Positions 8,216 to 28,760 of a stretch of 62,742 bases of DNA are shown here, piece after piece. Numbering within the stretch: the stretch's first letter is position 1; each line of letters opens with the position of its first letter. The notes below the pieces were generated by a model. That model ran no database searches, was not told where the DNA came from, and was given only the letters and a program-made list of their open reading frames with translations. Made by a program: the position numbers and the translations under genes. Location of the stretch: contig JACPHN010000135.1 of NCBI GenBank assembly GCA_016188575.1, forward strand, positions 1 through 62,742, read 5' to 3'. The stretch is from Candidatus Schekmanbacteria bacterium (GTDB taxonomy: Bacteria > CSSED10-310 > JACPHN01).

Positions 8216-9982
8216 ATGGCCGCGATTTCTGAGACGCTTTTTCTCGTGAGCTTGCCGCCCGACCAGTGGTCGCCCTTTCGGGTCATGACCGAGAGCCTGC
8301 CGCTCACGACGCGGGCAGTCGAGAAGGAAGAGATCTCGACCCTGCTCACAACGGCGGTCGGACAGCTCCCGGCCGCGTCGCCCCCGCCTCTGCCGGCCGC
8401 GATCCCGGCCGTTGTCCTGGTGACGACTCCCGAGTGGTTCGATGCGCTCGACCCGGAGCTCGTCGCGCCGATCCCCGCGCTCCTCGTGTCCGATCCCACG
8501 GACCCTTCGATCCTGCCGCGACTGGACACCGAGCACCTGGTGGACATTCTTGCCGTCTGGAACGGCGCCATCGCGCCCGAATCCTTGACCGTTTGTTACG
8601 CGCGCCTTTGCCAGCGTATCGGTCTCCAGCAGCAGCGCGCGCGCCTGCGGGAGCGCGTCGCGCGACTCGAGAACCAACTCGGCTGTCTCACGCAGGTTGG
8701 CCCGCGGATCGCTTCACTGCTCAACCTGGACGAGGTTCTGGAGCAGACGGTGCGGTCGGTGGCGGAGCTCCTCGACGTTCATCGCGTCTCGGTCATGCTC
8801 GTCGAGGAAGACGGTGCCACGCTGGTCATCCGCGCTACCTATGGGTTTCCTCCGGACGTGCCCCGGCACCTCCGCGTCCCCATCGGCGAGGGCATTGCCG
8901 GGCGGGTAGCCGCGACCGGGGAGCCGGTGTTCGTGCGCGACATCAGCAGTTTGAGCTTGCCGCGGCGCCACCCCGAGGAGTACCCGGGGCCTTCGTTCAT
9001 GTCGCTGCCACTCGTTGTCGGCGGCCGGACGATCGGGGTGCTCAACGTTTCCAGCAAGGGCAGTGGCCGGCACTTCGGCAGCAACGAGTTCGACCTCATG
9101 CTCTCCATTTTTGGCACGATCGCGACCGCGCTCGAAAACGCGCGCCTCTATCAGCTCCTGGAACGTCGGGCGAGCGAGGCCGAACGCGCCCGTACGCAGA
9201 TCGAACGCCTCGAAAAACTGCACCTGACCGTCGCCGCGAATCTCTCCCACGAGCTGATGACGCCGCTGACCGCGATCAACGGCTACGCCGAGCTGCTCGA
9301 GATGGATTCGCGCAGTGGCCAGGAGCGCGTTTTGACCAGCGAGCAACGCGTCACGTACCTGAGCGCCATCCTGCAACGAGTCCAGCAGATTCGCTCGACT
9401 GTGGATGAGATGGCCGAGCTCTTTGACATCCTGCTCGATCACGGTTCCCTCACGTTGCGTGCTGCGACGGTGCGCGAGCTCTTGCTCGCGGGCTGGCGGG
9501 CGGCGCAGGAGCTGTTCGGCGACGCCGCCGACGCCGAAGCCGGCGACACCGCCCCCAACGTCTTGCAGATCGATATCGACCCCGGTCACGTCGTCTCCTG
9601 TGACCCCGAGAAAGTCGTCGTTGTGCTTCGCAACTTGTTTTCGAACGCGCTCAAGTTCTCGACACCGCGCAGCAGTCTCGGGGTGCGCACGGAGGTGGTG
9701 GCCGGACCAGGTCCCGGGGAGAATGTGCACGCGGACGGCGAATTCGTTCGCATTTCGGTGCAGAATGAGGGGGTCTACATTCCTCCCGAGGAAATCGAGG
9801 CGATTTTCGGTTTGTATCGGCAACTTGGCGATCCTCTCGTCAACAAGCCGAAAGGAATTGGGCTCGGCCTGCCTCTCTGTCGGGCGATCGTCGAGCATCA
9901 CCACGGAATGATCTGGGCGGACAGCCGTAGCGGCGGCCTGACCACGTTCAGCTTCACCCTCCCACGGAGGCGGAGCGCCTGA
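8216..9982 (+). CDS. GAF-domain sensor histidine kinase
   Basis: 588 residues. The N-terminal 130 residues have no hydrophobic anchor and might be a degenerate receiver-like sensor. A GAF domain follows (about 165-310), then a coiled-coil linker, the HisKA dimerisation domain with phospho-acceptor His about 345 in NLSHELMTPL, and a HATPase domain (about 460-585) with N-box NLFSNALKF and G-box GIGLGLPLC. It is a soluble, cytoplasmic-type kinase. The stop codon is one base upstream of the acyl-CoA synthetase ATG, so the two are likely co-transcribed. No partner response regulator is adjacent. Confidence 0.92.
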   Translation: MAAISETLFLVSLPPDQWSPFRVMTESLPLTTRAVEKEEISTLLTTAVGQLPAASPPPLPAAIPAVVLVTTPEWFDALDPELVAPIPALLVSDPTDPSILPRLDTEHLVDILAVWNGAIAPESLTVCYARLCQRIGLQQQRARLRERVARLENQLGCLTQVGPRIASLLNLDEVLEQTVRSVAELLDVHRVSVMLVEEDGATLVIRATYGFPPDVPRHLRVPIGEGIAGRVAATGEPVFVRDISSLSLPRRHPEEYPGPSFMSLPLVVGGRTIGVLNVSSKGSGRHFGSNEFDLMLSIFGTIATALENARLYQLLERRASEAERARTQIERLEKLHLTVAANLSHELMTPLTAINGYAELLEMDSRSGQERVLTSEQRVTYLSAILQRVQQIRSTVDEMAELFDILLDHGSLTLRAATVRELLLAGWRAAQELFGDAADAEAGDTAPNVLQIDIDPGHVVSCDPEKVVVVLRNLFSNALKFSTPRSSLGVRTEVVAGPGPGENVHADGEFVRISVQNEGVYIPPEEIEAIFGLYRQLGDPLVNKPKGIGLGLPLCRAIVEHHHGMIWADSRSGGLTTFSFTLPRRRSA

Positions 9983-13695: not shown

Positions 13696-14100
13696 GTGGA
13701 TGCGGCGAGCGTCCGCTTTGGAGCAGGGAGGATCCGCGTGGCGGCGCCGGTGAAGACCAGCGATGTCCGCGCCCGTCCCGGTTTTCACGACGGCGACTGC
13801 GGCACGCACTCCAGCCGGACCCTGATGTTCGCCGAGCTGGAGCTCCTGCTGGAGGCCACCGCGCCCGACGCTGCTATCTCCGACTACCGTCGCGCAACCG
13901 TTGAGCAGAACGTGCTGGGGAAGCGGACGCGTACGACGCGGGAACATACGGTCCGAAAGCTCAAGGCACTCTACGGGCTGGATTCAGTACTCCCGGTGTT
14001 CCGCGCGCTGCGGACCTTCTGGCCGCTCGACAACGAGGCGTTGCGCGAGATCAACCCGAAGCTGAGCGTGAGCTTCGGGTGCTTCGGTAAGCTGTTTGGG
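13696..14100 (+). pseudogene. Remnant of a BrxA-like (DUF1819) gene
   Basis: About residues 36-110 of this frame (EQNVLGKRTRTTREHTVRKL then LYGLDSVLPVFRALRTFW) resemble the N-terminal part of the BrxA/DUF1819 proteins that open BREX operons. The expected continuation is missing: after DNEALREIN the frame runs directly into sequence matching the tail of a DNA methyltransferase. The open frame 13696-14409 is therefore a chance join, not one protein. Assignment is from motif memory; a profile search against BrxA would settle it. Confidence 0.45.
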
Positions 14101-14176
14101 GACTACGCGGAATGGAGCGACCGATCCTGTTCCTCCGTGCTCCCGCCGCCGACGACCGGTTTGCGCGGCCCGCGGC

Positions 14177-14505
14177 CTTCAGGAGAAACTCAAGCGTATC
14201 CTCCATGGCGCCCTCCTTGCGGCATCTTCGTGCGGTGGAAGCCCATCGAGCAGCAGCCGCCGGGATGGGATCCGGACATCAACGATGGCGTTGGGGTCAA
14301 CATCCGCCCGTTCATGCGGGTCGGCGATGTCGGCAAGAAGGGCGCGGGGATCCTGAGGGAGAAGCCGAACATCGACTGGGGCAAGGACCCGGCGGGCGCG
14401 CCCTGGTAAGACCTCTTCGCGGATGACCGGATCAACGATCACCACCTCACGCTCGCCGAGAAGCAGGCCGCGCGAGAGGCGAACGCACTCAGGGAGGAAG
14501 CATGA
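14177..14505 (+). pseudogene. Remnant: C-terminal tail of a PglX-like adenine methyltransferase
   Basis: Three pieces of one protein are visible. LQEKLKRILHGA is in frame 2 (14177-14212). A -1 type shift then leads to frame 1, IFVRWKPIEQQPPGWDPDIN and NIRPFM...VGKKGAGILR. A TAA at 14407-14409 sits exactly where Tyr is expected between GAPW and DLFADDRINDHHLTLAEK. The frame then closes at TGA 14503-14505, which overlaps the ATG of the next gene (ATGA). The motif set is that of the C-terminus of large N6-adenine methylases of BREX (PglX) or Eco57I type. At least one frameshift and one nonsense change make it dead; the catalytic NPPY part is absent. Confidence 0.5.
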
Positions 14506-15710
14506 TCGACTGGGCGCAACTGGAAGCGCGAATCGCCGTCGGCGAGGACGAGCACACCGAGCTCAAGCGCGGGCCGGGCGATCTCAGGCCGATCGGTCGC
14601 GCCATTTCGGCCATCGCGAACACGGACGGTGGCCTCGTGATCCTGGGAGTCGACGACAATGGCAACATCGTTGGGGTTCGCGAGGATCCGGAGTCCGTGT
14701 CCGAGCGGCTCACGGGCTTCCTGCAGTCCGGGCTGAATGCGCCCGTTCAGGCGCGCCTCGGACAGCATCGGGACGCCAATGGGTGGATTCACTGGGTCGA
14801 GGTGCCGCGGCAGCGGGGTTTCGAGCCGCTATCTCACGATGGGCGGGTCTTTGTCCGCCGAGCGCGGGCGAGCGTGCAGCCGTCCCCTCAGGAGCTGCAG
14901 GATCTGTACAACCTGTTCGGCTACATCATTACGGAAGAACGGGCGATAGCTTCCGCCGGGATCGAGGCCATCGAGGTGCAGAGCTTCTGGTCCTATCTCG
15001 ATCGTCTGGGGCTGGACCGAACAGGCGATCCACAGCCTGGGCTGGAGGACGACTTGTTGGCCAGAGGCGTGCTGGCCGAGATCGGCGGGGATCTGCGGGC
15101 GACTCTGTACGGCGCCCTGGCTTTCGGGAAGACGCCGCAGTCCTATCCGCAGACAGGAAGGTTTTGGGTAGAATGCGTCTCCTACGGTGGAAAAGACCGT
15201 GCGGACGAGGTCCTTCAGGTCGCCGAAGGGAAAGGCCGTCTCGACGAGCAGGTCGATCGAGCCCTCGGGTGGGTGCGTGGGCTTGGAAGAGGCGAGCGCT
15301 ACGAGGGCATCACTCGGATCGACATGCCACTTGTCCCGCGAGCTGCGGTGCGGGAGGCGCTCGTGAATGCCGTGGCTCACCGCGACTACGCCATTATCGG
15401 ATCGCAGACTCTTCTCGAAGTCTTCTCCGACCGCCTCGTGGTCACGAGCCCCGGAGTGCTGCCGACCACGGTCACGGTCGAGTCCGTCAAGCGCGGGGGT
15501 AGACCACGGTCGCGCAACGAGTCCATCGCAAACTATCTGCTCGCGATGCAGAAAATGGAGAGGCGAGGTCGGGGATGGCTCCTGATGCGGCGGGCCATGC
15601 TGGAGCACAACGGCACCGAGCCAGAGATTGAAGAGGATCGTGAGGCGCGCTGGGTGAGCGTCACCCTCTGGCTTCGGCCTCCGCAGAATGCAGCAGAGAG
15701 TAGGGCATGA
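14502..15710 (+). CDS. AlbA_2 (Schlafen-like) domain ATP-binding protein
   Basis: 402 residues. The N-terminal AlbA_2 domain (about 1-125) shows TELKRGPGD, ISAIANTDGGLVILGVDDNG and VRRARASVQPS. The C-terminal part carries the HATPase_c_4-type motif REALVNAVAHRDYAIIG and a following strand. COG2865 proteins of this build are annotated as transcriptional regulators or RecG-like helicases and recur inside BREX and type I restriction loci. Here the gene is intact while both flanking BREX-like genes are broken. ATGA overlaps at both ends (14502-14505 and 15707-15710) show it was an internal gene of the former operon. Confidence 0.85.
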   Translation: MIDWAQLEARIAVGEDEHTELKRGPGDLRPIGRAISAIANTDGGLVILGVDDNGNIVGVREDPESVSERLTGFLQSGLNAPVQARLGQHRDANGWIHWVEVPRQRGFEPLSHDGRVFVRRARASVQPSPQELQDLYNLFGYIITEERAIASAGIEAIEVQSFWSYLDRLGLDRTGDPQPGLEDDLLARGVLAEIGGDLRATLYGALAFGKTPQSYPQTGRFWVECVSYGGKDRADEVLQVAEGKGRLDEQVDRALGWVRGLGRGERYEGITRIDMPLVPRAAVREALVNAVAHRDYAIIGSQTLLEVFSDRLVVTSPGVLPTTVTVESVKRGGRPRSRNESIANYLLAMQKMERRGRGWLLMRRAMLEHNGTEPEIEEDREARWVSVTLWLRPPQNAAESRA

Positions 15711-17956: not shown

Positions 17957-18817
17957 CTAGTCTACGCGCGGGCCGGCCGCGCCGGAGTCCGGCGGGCGTG
18001 CACCGGGCAGACTGCACCCGTCAAAGAGCGCTCCGTGCAGATTCGCCCCGGCGAGCTTGGCGCCGGCGAGCAGCGCGCGCGAAAAGTCGGCATGTTCCGC
18101 ATTTACCGCCGTGAAGTCGGCGCCGCGCAGGTCCGCGCCGACCAGATCCGCACGCGTCAGGTTGGCCCAACAGAGACGGGCATCCACCAGGCTTGCCCCG
18201 CTCAAGTTGGCGGCGACCAGTCGCGCATTGTCGAAAATGGCGCCATCGAGCACTGCGTTGGAAAGATCCGCCTGGTCGAGCACGCTGCCGGCGAGTTGGC
18301 AGCGGTCCAGAAGCGCGCGGCGGAGGTCTGCACCGGAAAGGTCGGCGCCAACCAGGTAGGCGTTGGACAGCACCGCGTCGTGGAGTGTGGCCTGGCGCGC
18401 GACACCGGCGCGCCAGAACGCCTGGGCGAGCATGGCACCCGCGAGATCCGCGTGCGAAAGATCGGTTTCCGCGAGCGCCGCGGCGCTGAGTCTGGCGTTA
18501 CGCAGGATCGCATGGGCGAGGTCGGCGCCCGTAAGCACGGCACCCGAGAGATTGGCGCCGGAGAGGTTCGCATTGCGAAGCACGGCGCCCGGCAGCGACA
18601 GGCCACCAAGGTCGGCGCCGATCAGCACGAAACCCATGAGCGGTCGCCGTGCCGCCACGAAGGCGACCAGTTGCTCCCGATAGTCCCCTGGAAGCGACTT
18701 ACCCGCCGCCATCAGATGCCAGATGCACTGCCCGCACCCGGCCTCGTGCTCCGGAAAATCGCACGCGTGCGGGACACTTCCGGGAGCGGTAGCGCGGAAG
18801 CCGCAAGACGCCCGCAC
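17957..18817 (-). CDS. Pentapeptide-repeat protein
   Basis: 286 residues. From about residue 60 to 270 the sequence is an almost unbroken run of A(D/N)Lxx pentapeptides (LIGADLGGLSLPGAVLRNAN and so on), predicted to form a right-handed quadrilateral beta helix of about 40 coils. The N-terminal 45 residues contain a CDFPEHEAGCGQCIWH cysteine cluster that might bind a metal. No transmembrane segment. Four bases separate its start from the stop of the 205-residue gene upstream, so they are probably co-transcribed. Function cannot be inferred; some family members mimic DNA. Confidence 0.9.
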   Translation of the reverse strand: MRASCGFRATAPGSVPHACDFPEHEAGCGQCIWHLMAAGKSLPGDYREQLVAFVAARRPLMGFVLIGADLGGLSLPGAVLRNANLSGANLSGAVLTGADLAHAILRNARLSAAALAETDLSHADLAGAMLAQAFWRAGVARQATLHDAVLSNAYLVGADLSGADLRRALLDRCQLAGSVLDQADLSNAVLDGAIFDNARLVAANLSGASLVDARLCWANLTRADLVGADLRGADFTAVNAEHADFSRALLAGAKLAGANLHGALFDGCSLPGARPPDSGAAGPRVD

Positions 18818-18820
18818 GGC

Positions 18821-19438
18821 TCAGTTGCGCCCGACAGCCTTGAGCTTGGCTTTTCCGTCCTCCACCGTGACGCGGAAGGTGACGCTCTTGCAGCCGAGCT
18901 GTTCCTGAATTTTCTTGGCCTGCTTCATGACGAGCTGCCGGAATGCCTCGATGTCGACGTTTGTGCCCTCTCCCGTATCCTGGCGAGCGGACACATACCG
19001 GTCAAACAGCTTGGCGACGGAGTCTGGCTTGCTCTTGGCTGCTGTCGGCGGCGCGCTGGGCTCGGCGGTGACGGGTTCCGCCGTGCGCGGCGGCGCTTCC
19101 ACGGGTTCGGGCGGCGGTGGGGGCGGCGGCGGCGCCTCGACCAGCTTTTCCGAGCGCCGCGCCACCGGCCGGCCGATCGCGATGCCCTCCTCCCGCTCGC
19201 GATTCTTCCGCGCCCAAAGCTGATTGTACATCCCGAAGCGGCCGACGAGATTGCGCAGGCGGAACGACGCCTGGGGATTATTCAGCTTCTTGTCGGACAG
19301 GCGGTTGATGATCGCCTCTACCTTTCGCTGAATATCCCACGGCGGGTGCTTCTGGTGGCCGGCAAAAAACATGTCGTAGTCCCGCCGGCAGCGTTCGATA
19401 AAGTGCTCCAACTGATTGAGCTCTTCGATGATGTTCAT
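18821..19438 (-). CDS. Hypothetical protein resembling the MXAN_5187 C-terminal family
   Basis: 205 residues in three parts: an alpha-helical N-terminus (1-90) with RKVEAIINRLSDKKLN and FGMYNQLWARKNRE, a Pro/Glu-rich linker with eight consecutive prolines (about 98-130), and a C-terminal domain FDRYVSARQDTGEG...VMKQAKKIQEQLGCKSVTF RVTVEDGK. The last part resembles the domain named after MXAN_5187 of Myxococcus xanthus. The start ATG overlaps the preceding gene's stop (ATGA, 19435-19438). Cytoplasmic, no catalytic motif seen. Confidence 0.7.
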   Translation of the reverse strand: MNIIEELNQLEHFIERCRRDYDMFFAGHQKHPPWDIQRKVEAIINRLSDKKLNNPQASFRLRNLVGRFGMYNQLWARKNREREEGIAIGRPVARRSEKLVEAPPPPPPPPEPVEAPPRTAEPVTAEPSAPPTAAKSKPDSVAKLFDRYVSARQDTGEGTNVDIEAFRQLVMKQAKKIQEQLGCKSVTFRVTVEDGKAKLKAVGRN

Positions 19439-26891: not shown

Positions 26892-27009
26892 GCGTCCGCG
26901 ACCAGCGCGTTGCACAGCATGCGTGATCGGATAAGGATGCGGGTCGTGGCGGAGAGCACCGGCTATTTCTCTGGAAGGCAATTTCCCCAAGCTTCCGGAG
27001 GTTGGACCT

Positions 27010-27162
27010 GTGATCCCCGCCAGGTGGAAGTCTACCATCGTGACCGATACCTTGAGGAGCATCCTCGATCGCGAGCGCATCGAGCAGGAGGCGCGAGCGG
27101 TGGGTGCGCTGCGTCGCCAGCGCCTGAATGTCCCCCTTTCCACTCTTGTGGATCAAACCTGA
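27010..27162 (+). pseudogene. Fragment resembling the N-terminus of an IS4-type transposase
   Basis: A 50-codon frame from GTG 27010 reads TLRSILDRERIEQEARAVGA LRRQR, like the extreme N-terminus of IS4-family transposases. It then ends at a TGA. No DDE part or terminal inverted repeat is visible, so at most a scrap of an insertion sequence remains. It sits 15 bases from the end of the ATPase/TOPRIM-like pair. Confidence 0.35.
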
Positions 27163-27177: not shown

Positions 27178-27663
27178 TTAGAAGACAAACGGCATGACGG
27201 TCTGAACCAAACGCTGCCGCTCCGCATCGTTGTGCTGGAGTTGCGCGTGATCCCAGTATTCAACAGTGCCGGCGCCGCAATCATTGGCCAGAGATTTGCC
27301 GATCTCCTCGAAACTGATGTTTAGTGCCTTCTTGAGCGTCTCAGGTTCGTACTTCGAGCCGACCACAAACACGCGCGTCTTGAAGTTCGCTGGGATCTCT
27401 TGGTCAAATTCGCGTTTGCGTTTGCCGACCTGGTCATCGAAGTCAATGAGCATGACGACGTGAGCGTCCGGGTAATCACGCAGCCTTGGGATATATTCAT
27501 CCTGAAACGTCTTGAGCACCTTGGACCAGCCCCCGGCGGGTGGCACGACCTGTATTCGCGCGTCTTTCACCTGGTGATGCAGGACGAAGCCGTCGGCGAT
27601 TTGCCGATCGCGGTCATCTTCCGGGATGACATAGACGTGAGGAGCGTACCTGTTCATGGTCAC
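27178..27663 (-). CDS. Small TOPRIM-like protein, partner of the adjacent ATPase
   Basis: 161 residues (ATG 27663; a second ATG two codons later is equally good). No named domain recognised, but the layout fits a minimal TOPRIM fold: an acidic motif after the first strand (VYVIPEDDRDRQIADGF) and a DxD motif after a later strand (HVVMLIDFDDQVGKRKREF), then a strand VFVVGSKYEPE and a C-terminal DHAQLQHNDAERQRLVQTV helix. Its start overlaps the stop of the ATPase gene by 4 bases, so the two are translationally coupled. ATPase plus TOPRIM nuclease pairs are the core of OLD/Gabija/PARIS-type defences; whether this is a nuclease is inference. Confidence 0.75.
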   Translation of the reverse strand: MTMNRYAPHVYVIPEDDRDRQIADGFVLHHQVKDARIQVVPPAGGWSKVLKTFQDEYIPRLRDYPDAHVVMLIDFDDQVGKRKREFDQEIPANFKTRVFVVGSKYEPETLKKALNISFEEIGKSLANDCGAGTVEYWDHAQLQHNDAERQRLVQTVMPFVF

Positions 27664-28760
27664 CCGATGATCTCGTCGCGAATCAGAGCGTTGATCAGGT
27701 CGCCGCTGTAGGGGAGGTCAGCGAGTGGTCTCACGACAGTGGGATCCAGATGAGACTTACGTGTGAGCACGAAAGTGGTTTCGTCGGAGAACTTGCGGAC
27801 TGTTTCCGGGTGGTGGGTCGTTGCAATGAATTGACCGCTTCGATTGGTCATCTTCCGCAAGCCGGTGATGAAGTGGCCGACTTCTGAAAGCGAAAGGTGG
27901 CTGTCCGGTTCGTCCCACATGCAGACGACGGGTGAACCCACAGCATTGGAAGCGATGATGTACGCGCTGAGGAAGTAGCACTTCTCGCCGTCGGAAAGTG
28001 ACTTGAACTCGACCGAGAGGCTGCGCTGCGGATTCTGTTGCTCGAATTTGACAATCAACTGAGTGCCGCTCTCGCCGCGTTCGACGTTCTCGATCGATGA
28101 GAAATCGGGGATCACGGTCTTCATGTAGGCGTCGAACACGCCATATGCTGCGGGCCTTTGCCCGAACAGTGCCCGCAAACACGATGCGTAGTTTCCGGCG
28201 TCGTCCTGCAACTCCATCGAGGGTTCTTTGGAGAACCCCGTCATCGTCTTCGGAATCGGTGCAATCAGGATCATTGTCGCGAAAAACGTCTTGATGTCCT
28301 GGATCGCTCGTTCGCCGGGCCGCTCGTTGATCACCGGCAGGGCGAAGATGTGCCAGTCGAGGCCAAACGCCGCTCCGCCCGAGAGTTGGATCTGCGAGTG
28401 GTGGCGCGTGAAGATGGATTGCCCGTCGACCGCCAGACTTTCGTCCAAGATACGCACCTCTCGGAAGCTCGCTGGCCATTCGAAGGATACCGCGTACTCG
28501 AACCGCTTGTCTGACAGTGTCAGTTCGACCTCAAACCTCATCGGGTGATCCGTGCGATGCTGTGTGAAATCACGTGCAGAGATGCGATCGCCAACCCGGT
28601 TGGAGCCCCGGCAGATACTTTGAAACAGCGCCAGGCAACGTAGCACCGTTGACTTCCCCGCCCCGTTCTTGCCAATCACCAAGACGGAGCGGTGGCCGGA
28701 AAAATCAAGCGTGAAGTTTTCGAGGCAGCGGAAGTTGTGCACGTAAAGCCGTTCGATCAT
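27660..28760 (-). CDS. SMC/OLD-like AAA ATPase (AAA_15/AAA_21 type)
   Basis: 366 residues from ATG 28760 (MIERLYVHNFRCLENFTLDF, the usual start of this family); a TTG 48 bases upstream would add 16 residues. Walker A is VIGKNGAGKSTVLR; the ABC-type signature is KSLSDGEKCYFLSAY; Walker B is VVCMWDEPDSHLSLSE; the H-loop region is FIATTHHPETVRKF. There is no C-terminal TOPRIM in this protein; that part appears to be supplied by the small downstream gene. The build is close to the ATPase subunits of two-gene defence systems. Intact, no frameshift. Confidence 0.88.
   Translation of the reverse strand: MIERLYVHNFRCLENFTLDFSGHRSVLVIGKNGAGKSTVLRCLALFQSICRGSNRVGDRISARDFTQHRTDHPMRFEVELTLSDKRFEYAVSFEWPASFREVRILDESLAVDGQSIFTRHHSQIQLSGGAAFGLDWHIFALPVINERPGERAIQDIKTFFATMILIAPIPKTMTGFSKEPSMELQDDAGNYASCLRALFGQRPAAYGVFDAYMKTVIPDFSSIENVERGESGTQLIVKFEQQNPQRSLSVEFKSLSDGEKCYFLSAYIIASNAVGSPVVCMWDEPDSHLSLSEVGHFITGLRKMTNRSGQFIATTHHPETVRKFSDETTFVLTRKSHLDPTVVRPLADLPYSGDLINALIRDEIIG

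Follow-up and report, generated by a model that had tools for sequence, protein, structure and literature searches.

The window (the whole stretch of DNA analysed, 62,742 nucleotides in length) carries two overlapping genes, one for an SMC/Rad50-like ATPase and the other for a small protein, probably a TOPRIM-type nuclease, and homologues of the two are found side by side in several bacterial phyla. On balance, and with some reserve, we favour the view that the pair is a conflict module, its effector a TOPRIM protein, and a new family built to the known design of ATPase sensor and TOPRIM effector. More specifically, abortive infection or toxin-antitoxin action is, from its architecture, the most likely role.

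A two-gene unit conserved as a pair

The features of the pair are collected in Table 1. Measured against the three nearest comparable loci, the small gene has a dN/dS of 0.19-0.36 and the ATPase one of 0.08-0.25, so that both are real, maintained proteins under purifying selection. The initial annotation was right in seeing an ATPase gene followed by a separate small one. It described the junction as an ATGA overlap, which is incorrect for the window: the four shared bases are GTGA, the small gene starting at the GTG within CGGGTGACCATG, with an in-frame ATG six bases further on. ATGA does occur among relatives. Spacing was measured in 76 related pairs (75 loci from the scan described below plus that of Kovacikia), and 61 of them have a four-base overlap, reading ATGA in 54 and GTGA in seven.

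Table 1. Features of the ATPase and TOPRIM-like gene pair in the window
Feature	Position	Strand	Details
ABC/SMC-Rad50-type ATPase, first gene of the pair	27660..28760	-	366 aa, ATG at 28760
Walker A GKNGAGKST, residues 30-38	28647..28673	-	G30, N32, G33, G35, K36 and T38 at 98-100% in 81 sequences
ABC signature LSDGE, residues 255-259	27984..27998	-	96-100% conserved in 81 sequences
Walker B / D-loop CMWDEPD, residues 280-286	27903..27923	-	C280, W282, D283, E284, P285 and D286 at least 98%
H-loop histidine H316	27813..27815	-	99% conserved in 81 sequences
Stop/start overlap GTGA, 4 bases	27660..27663	-	CGGGTGACCATG
TOPRIM-like protein, second gene, proposed nuclease effector	27178..27663	-	161 aa
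E15-D16, acidic motif after strand 1	27616..27621	-	E15 in 68/69, D16 in 69/69 sequences
D74-F-D76, DxD motif ending strand 3	27436..27444	-	each Asp in 69/69 sequences
E108, third conserved acidic position, not named in the initial annotation	27340..27342	-	69/69 sequences

The distribution of the pair was assessed by scanning the contigs of about 85,000 species genomes with the ATPase alignment (tblastn, E 0.001). This produced 251 stretches encoding relatives, the best 80 of which, all with about 44% identity or more, were kept. These best 80 come mostly from planctomycetes, cyanobacteria, acidobacteria, Chlorobiota and desulfobacteria, and 76 of them have the small gene matched immediately downstream of the ATPase. 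The small gene is unmatched at L012, L044 (where the contig ends within the ATPase gene), L066 and L083. Given this recurrence and the low dN/dS values, the pairing of the two genes is not due to chance. Each of 20 genomes checked has a single copy, and in two of these copies the small gene is short or broken. No third gene is conserved across lineages, the recurring neighbours being lineage-specific.

Plasmid-borne copies were also found with tblastn. Plasmid pA of Kovacikia carries the pair, at 43.5% and 46.8% identity, and a conjugative plasmid of Dolichospermum (L005) has the ATPase without the small gene. Loci at which the ATPase stands beside a truncated or broken small gene, or has none, are L005 (11111-11700), L049, L059 and L060; at L049 the ATPase is shortened as well. 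The lone Dolichospermum ATPase is flanked by VapC-type toxin genes (9039-9727 and 18599-19184), and reverse transcriptase genes lie further upstream.

Motifs and predicted folds of the two proteins

The key motif positions of the ATPase are conserved at 96-100% in 81 aligned sequences, bearing out the description of its Walker A, signature, Walker B and H-loop as intact. Pfam matches are to AAA_21 (3e-18), AAA_15 and SMC_N, and RecF, like SMC_N, is among the profile matches. The best PADLOC profile is AbiLi (2.6e-25), with mad3 and HEC-01A (1.4e-22) also matching. The AlphaFold model (pLDDT 89.5) has as its top VIA match PtuA of retron Ec83 (Z 21.0, rmsd 4.1 A, 299 aligned), and the heads of SMC, cohesin and Rad50 proteins follow within 1-2 Z units (Z about 20 for SMC/Rad50). 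Both this model and that of the small protein have TsOLD among their structural matches. As judged from its sequence and model, then, the ATPase resembles SMC, Rad50 and PtuA and lacks none of the motifs, and its profile and structural neighbours point to no one system.

The small protein was modelled by AlphaFold from 69 sequences (pLDDT 91.6, pTM 0.85). In the model, strand 9-14, helix 17-27, strand 37-39 and helix 46-63 are succeeded by strand 67-74, helix 79-89, strand 98-103 and then further helices. TOPRIM domains have acids after strand 1 and a DxD motif where strand 3 ends. The acidic motif and DxD that had been read in this order from the sequence do indeed occupy these positions and, along with E108, are invariant or nearly so in the family (Table 1). 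The small protein thus has, in its model, the TOPRIM order of elements, and is probably a TOPRIM-type nuclease.

Structural comparison is less clear-cut. VIA matches the small protein to OLD of Thermus (6p74; Z 7.4, rmsd 4.5 A, 135 aligned), OLD of Burkholderia (6nk8; Z 6.9) and topoisomerase II (Z 6.6), and lumazine synthases also reach Z 7.4, equal to the best OLD. Foldseek found no match at E 0.001 or better in the PDB or among viral models, an RloB-like protein coming only tenth in the viral list, and sequence searches against solved structures returned nothing significant. AriB is absent from the structural lists, an absence that carries no weight either way. The fold match to OLD nucleases is only moderate, and fold comparison alone is not decisive, since lumazine synthases tie in Z and Foldseek gives no PDB match at E 0.001.

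These results bear on another idea, in which the active partner is the ATPase and the small protein, instead of being a TOPRIM nuclease, is a regulator of Rossmann- or flavodoxin-like fold that carries a site for a metal or nucleotide. Other Rossmann-like folds join the lumazine synthases in equalling OLD by VIA Z, and a profile link to any TOPRIM family is not significant. Nevertheless, strands 1 and 3 each end in acids, whose order is that of TOPRIM and whose spacing is family-like, and several TOPRIM proteins recur in both the VIA and viral-model lists, so that we regard such a regulator as very unlikely. The spacing in the window protein is E-59-DxD-32-E, and the same 59 and 32 residues separate the acids of L098, a member of the DUF4276/HEC-01B-like group. 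In the other comparison-group sequences listed, the distance from E to DxD is about 52-66 and that from DxD to E 27-41. The acidic signature may thus be taken as a stronger hint of TOPRIM relationship than fold comparison.

The comparison with TOPRIM and DUF4435 families proposed at the outset had uneven results, the modelled element order speaking for TOPRIM and the profile searches yielding neither DUF4435 nor any significant match. The window small protein has no match in Pfam, NCBIfam or PADLOC, and there is no confident name for its family in these three, although the ABC ATPase classification of Krishnan et al. 2020 may describe it. DUF4435 (PF14491) is not among the 22 Pfam families matched, at E values up to 1, by 70 small proteins. 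None of the 70 has a Pfam match to RloB (PF13707), for which hhalign gives a non-significant P of 0.77. Matches to HEC-01B are weak (nine and five of 70 members, best 4e-4, the window protein not among them) and the family comparison is not significant (hhalign P 0.055). DUF4276 (PF14103) is matched by one member in 70, at an E of 0.11 that falls short of the cut-off; hhalign gives P 0.028 over 45 columns, and the comparisons with the DUF4276/HEC-01B-like group and with a second DUF4276 group are not significant. Between themselves, the HEC-01B and DUF4276-like groups do match, at 98%. The comparison alignments were small (3-10 sequences), limiting the power of these profile comparisons and, as they are non-significant, we do not claim membership of any of these families for the small protein.

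Genomic context, dispensability and origin

A defensive role is suggested by architecture and precedent rather than by context. The neighbours of the relatives are mostly housekeeping genes, at chromosomal sites that are fixed within genera. In a set of 139 neighbours from 20 loci, kinase-type models (PD-T4-6, MkoA, C3a189) make up nearly all of the 25 most frequent PADLOC matches, with mad6 in addition, and 132 control genes from the same contigs show comparable other PADLOC matches, including one to HEC-01B. A further 142 neighbours at 62 loci, from which kinase-motif proteins had been removed beforehand, gave scattered matches to restriction enzymes, helicases and others, each with one or two members. 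There is therefore no clear enrichment of defence genes around the pairs with respect to control regions, in tallies that are too coarse for a formal test. No relative of either gene was found in viral contigs, and none of the small one in phage records.

Within the window itself, the dead second defence locus reported about 12 kb away is confirmed: a 237-aa frame at 13696-14409 (+) contains fragments of BrxA and of the end of PglX, and part of a pAgo-like protein follows at 14502-15710 (+). Ordinary genes lie between these BREX/pAgo remnants and the pair. A transposase-like scrap placed just beyond the small gene, in the frame at 26959-27159 (+), found no such support, having no match in 72,556 plasmids and occurring only once in this genome.

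The mostly housekeeping surroundings do not make the pair itself housekeeping-like, its occurrence being patchy. In Microcoleaceae the small gene is present in 19 of 62 genomes, in three of these as a remnant only. At one site the pair lies between a DUF212 gene and a YbjN-like gene, and in 13 empty-site relatives these two genes are adjacent, with the pair absent between them. Comparison of L053 with five empty-site relatives shows homology to break at 9881 and 11696, delimiting a 1.8-kb unit that comprises the two genes and their leader and nothing else. The pair is a dispensable, modular and patchy cassette, which is decaying in places. The empty Microcoleaceae site in L168 holds short repetitive filler.

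An accessory role in DNA repair or recombination has to be weighed against these observations. In the RecF-RecR system an SMC-like ATPase works with a TOPRIM protein, and the window pair could by analogy be loaded at gaps or stalled forks, where the small protein would trim or clamp DNA and the pair would have no part in defence. Housekeeping neighbourhoods and fixed sites would suit such a module, as would the RecF and SMC_N profile matches and SMC/Rad50 fold of the ATPase. So would the tree of the ATPase, which appears largely vertical: it tracks phyla closely, with eight changes against a minimum of five and a shuffled mean of 34.4, and is in this respect unusual for a fast-moving defence system. 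There is also precedent in the OLD-family enzyme Cran1, which is reported to have no apparent antiviral role (PMC12796447). The decayed copies, the exactness of the empty sites and the patchy occurrence nonetheless argue against a repair module, as do the conserved E/DxD/E acids, which suggest catalysis, and the position of AbiLi as best PADLOC profile. RecR, moreover, is a DNA clamp encoded by a common core gene, whereas the window cassette is dispensable and has conserved acids of catalytic type. We therefore consider a repair function unlikely.

The window copy itself probably has a planctomycete origin. Its ATPase is nested with nine planctomycete rows at a support of 100. Only seven of the window's 145 searched relatives belong to its own phylum, none of them with the pair, and this number would seem lower than expected for a planctomycete genome. 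The 1.6-kb stretch of the pair has a GC content of 0.567 against 0.647 window-wide, with just one of 612 sliding windows lower. Together, the nesting, the few same-phylum relatives and the low GC suggest acquisition of the pair from a planctomycete, mis-binning being a possible alternative.

Known ATPase-TOPRIM systems and a possible mechanism

Associations of ATPase and TOPRIM protein include AbiL, MADS and PARIS; in the last of these AriA sequesters AriB until a trigger frees it as a two-metal tRNase (PMC12409363). AAA:TOPRIM_OLD pairs have been validated as antitoxin and toxin, and AbiL acts by abortive infection (PMC10440598). Seen against this background, the window pair most likely works as AbiL, MADS, PARIS and the AAA:TOPRIM_OLD pairs do, while being assignable to none of them.

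Similarities and differences vary with the system. AbiL (AbiLi and AbiLii) and RloA/RloB likewise have an ABC-type ATPase gene adjacent to that for a small TOPRIM-like protein, and share with the window protein the E..DxD..E order, AbiLi also providing the best PADLOC profile; but their small protein is about 200 aa, as against 161 here, and the RloB Pfam entry matches none of the 70 small proteins. The HEC-01A/HEC-01B and DUF4276 pairs are again composed of an ATPase and a downstream small TOPRIM-like protein, and here the window ATPase matches HEC-01A and the acid spacing equals that of L098; the window small protein differs in having no HEC-01B match, the profile-profile comparison being non-significant. 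The genomes searched have a Walker A ATPase directly upstream of every strong HEC-01B gene (ten) and every RloB gene (three), and of most DUF4276 genes. PARIS shares the design of separate sensor ATPase and TOPRIM effector, but AriB, of the DUF4435 family, is larger and a tRNase (PMC12409363), and none of the small proteins matches DUF4435. That the small protein is much smaller than AriB, as initially remarked, is true, but TOPRIM proteins of about 200 aa beside such ATPases are known in RloB/AbiLii, DUF4276 and HEC-01B.

The remaining comparisons are more distant. OLD proteins, the classes of which have been reviewed (PMC10568477), and GajA of Gabija combine an SMC-like ATPase with the TOPRIM chemistry proposed here, but OLD classes 1-3 and Gabija do so in one chain, and the window pair in two genes, both having a start and a stop of their own. 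Next to the window pair there is neither a GajB helicase gene nor one for reverse transcriptase. The ATPase fold is like that of PtuA in Septu and retrons, with the retron Ec83 protein the top structural match, but the Septu partner is the HNH nuclease PtuB and that of the window ATPase is TOPRIM-like; no HNH family was matched in Pfam by the window protein or the 70 members, and no retron was seen beside the pair.

The mechanism that we infer, embracing complex formation, nuclease activity, toxicity, a trigger and a role in defence, would run as follows. The SMC/Rad50-type ATPase, probably oligomeric, would bind and restrain the small protein and sense a trigger, for instance interference by a phage or damage to nucleoprotein, upon which the small TOPRIM protein would be released or switched on. 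Acting as a two-metal nuclease through E15/D16, D74, D76 and E108, it would then cut nucleic acid, which might be host tRNA (the target in PARIS) or DNA (as for OLD), and so cause growth arrest or destruction of the invader.

The same components could serve a selfish addiction cassette of toxin-antitoxin type with no benefit against phage, the TOPRIM protein being toxin and the ATPase antitoxin. The overlapping two-gene operon, patchy gain and loss, the copy on Kovacikia plasmid pA and the tested AAA:TOPRIM toxin-antitoxin pairs (PMC10440598) would all accord with addiction. However, the copies are mostly chromosomal, at sites fixed within genera, and the ATPases of L005, L059 and L060 with their broken or missing small genes fit loss of a toxin and equally loss of any function, leaving pure addiction quite unlikely in our estimation.

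The conflict-module reading with which we began agrees in its essentials with the compact anti-phage or toxin-antitoxin-like module initially envisaged, in that the design of ATPase and small TOPRIM-like protein is PARIS/AbiL-like and has no confident name in Pfam, NCBIfam or PADLOC. The neighbourhoods, made up mostly of housekeeping genes and with no clear defence enrichment, go part of the way towards one of the findings that had been named at the outset as refuting it. Tentatively, the pair may be taken a step further, as an undescribed split ATPase-TOPRIM immune or toxin-antitoxin family of at least five phyla, occupying fixed chromosomal sites outside defence islands; as part of the same tentative reading, its 161 aa would make the small protein the smallest separate TOPRIM effector among those compared here. 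If this is true, location outside islands would explain why island-based screens missed it and, should the role be defence or toxin-antitoxin, guilt-by-association searches miss conserved two-gene systems outside islands. The pair would also offer a compact, testable model of an SMC-like ATPase restraining a TOPRIM nuclease, its small size easing biochemical and structural work.

Finally, the same genome contains a second pair of ATPase and small TOPRIM-like protein (L097; G000:C154, around 27322-27663, +). It belongs to the HEC-01B/DUF4276 group and its genes, too, overlap by four bases.
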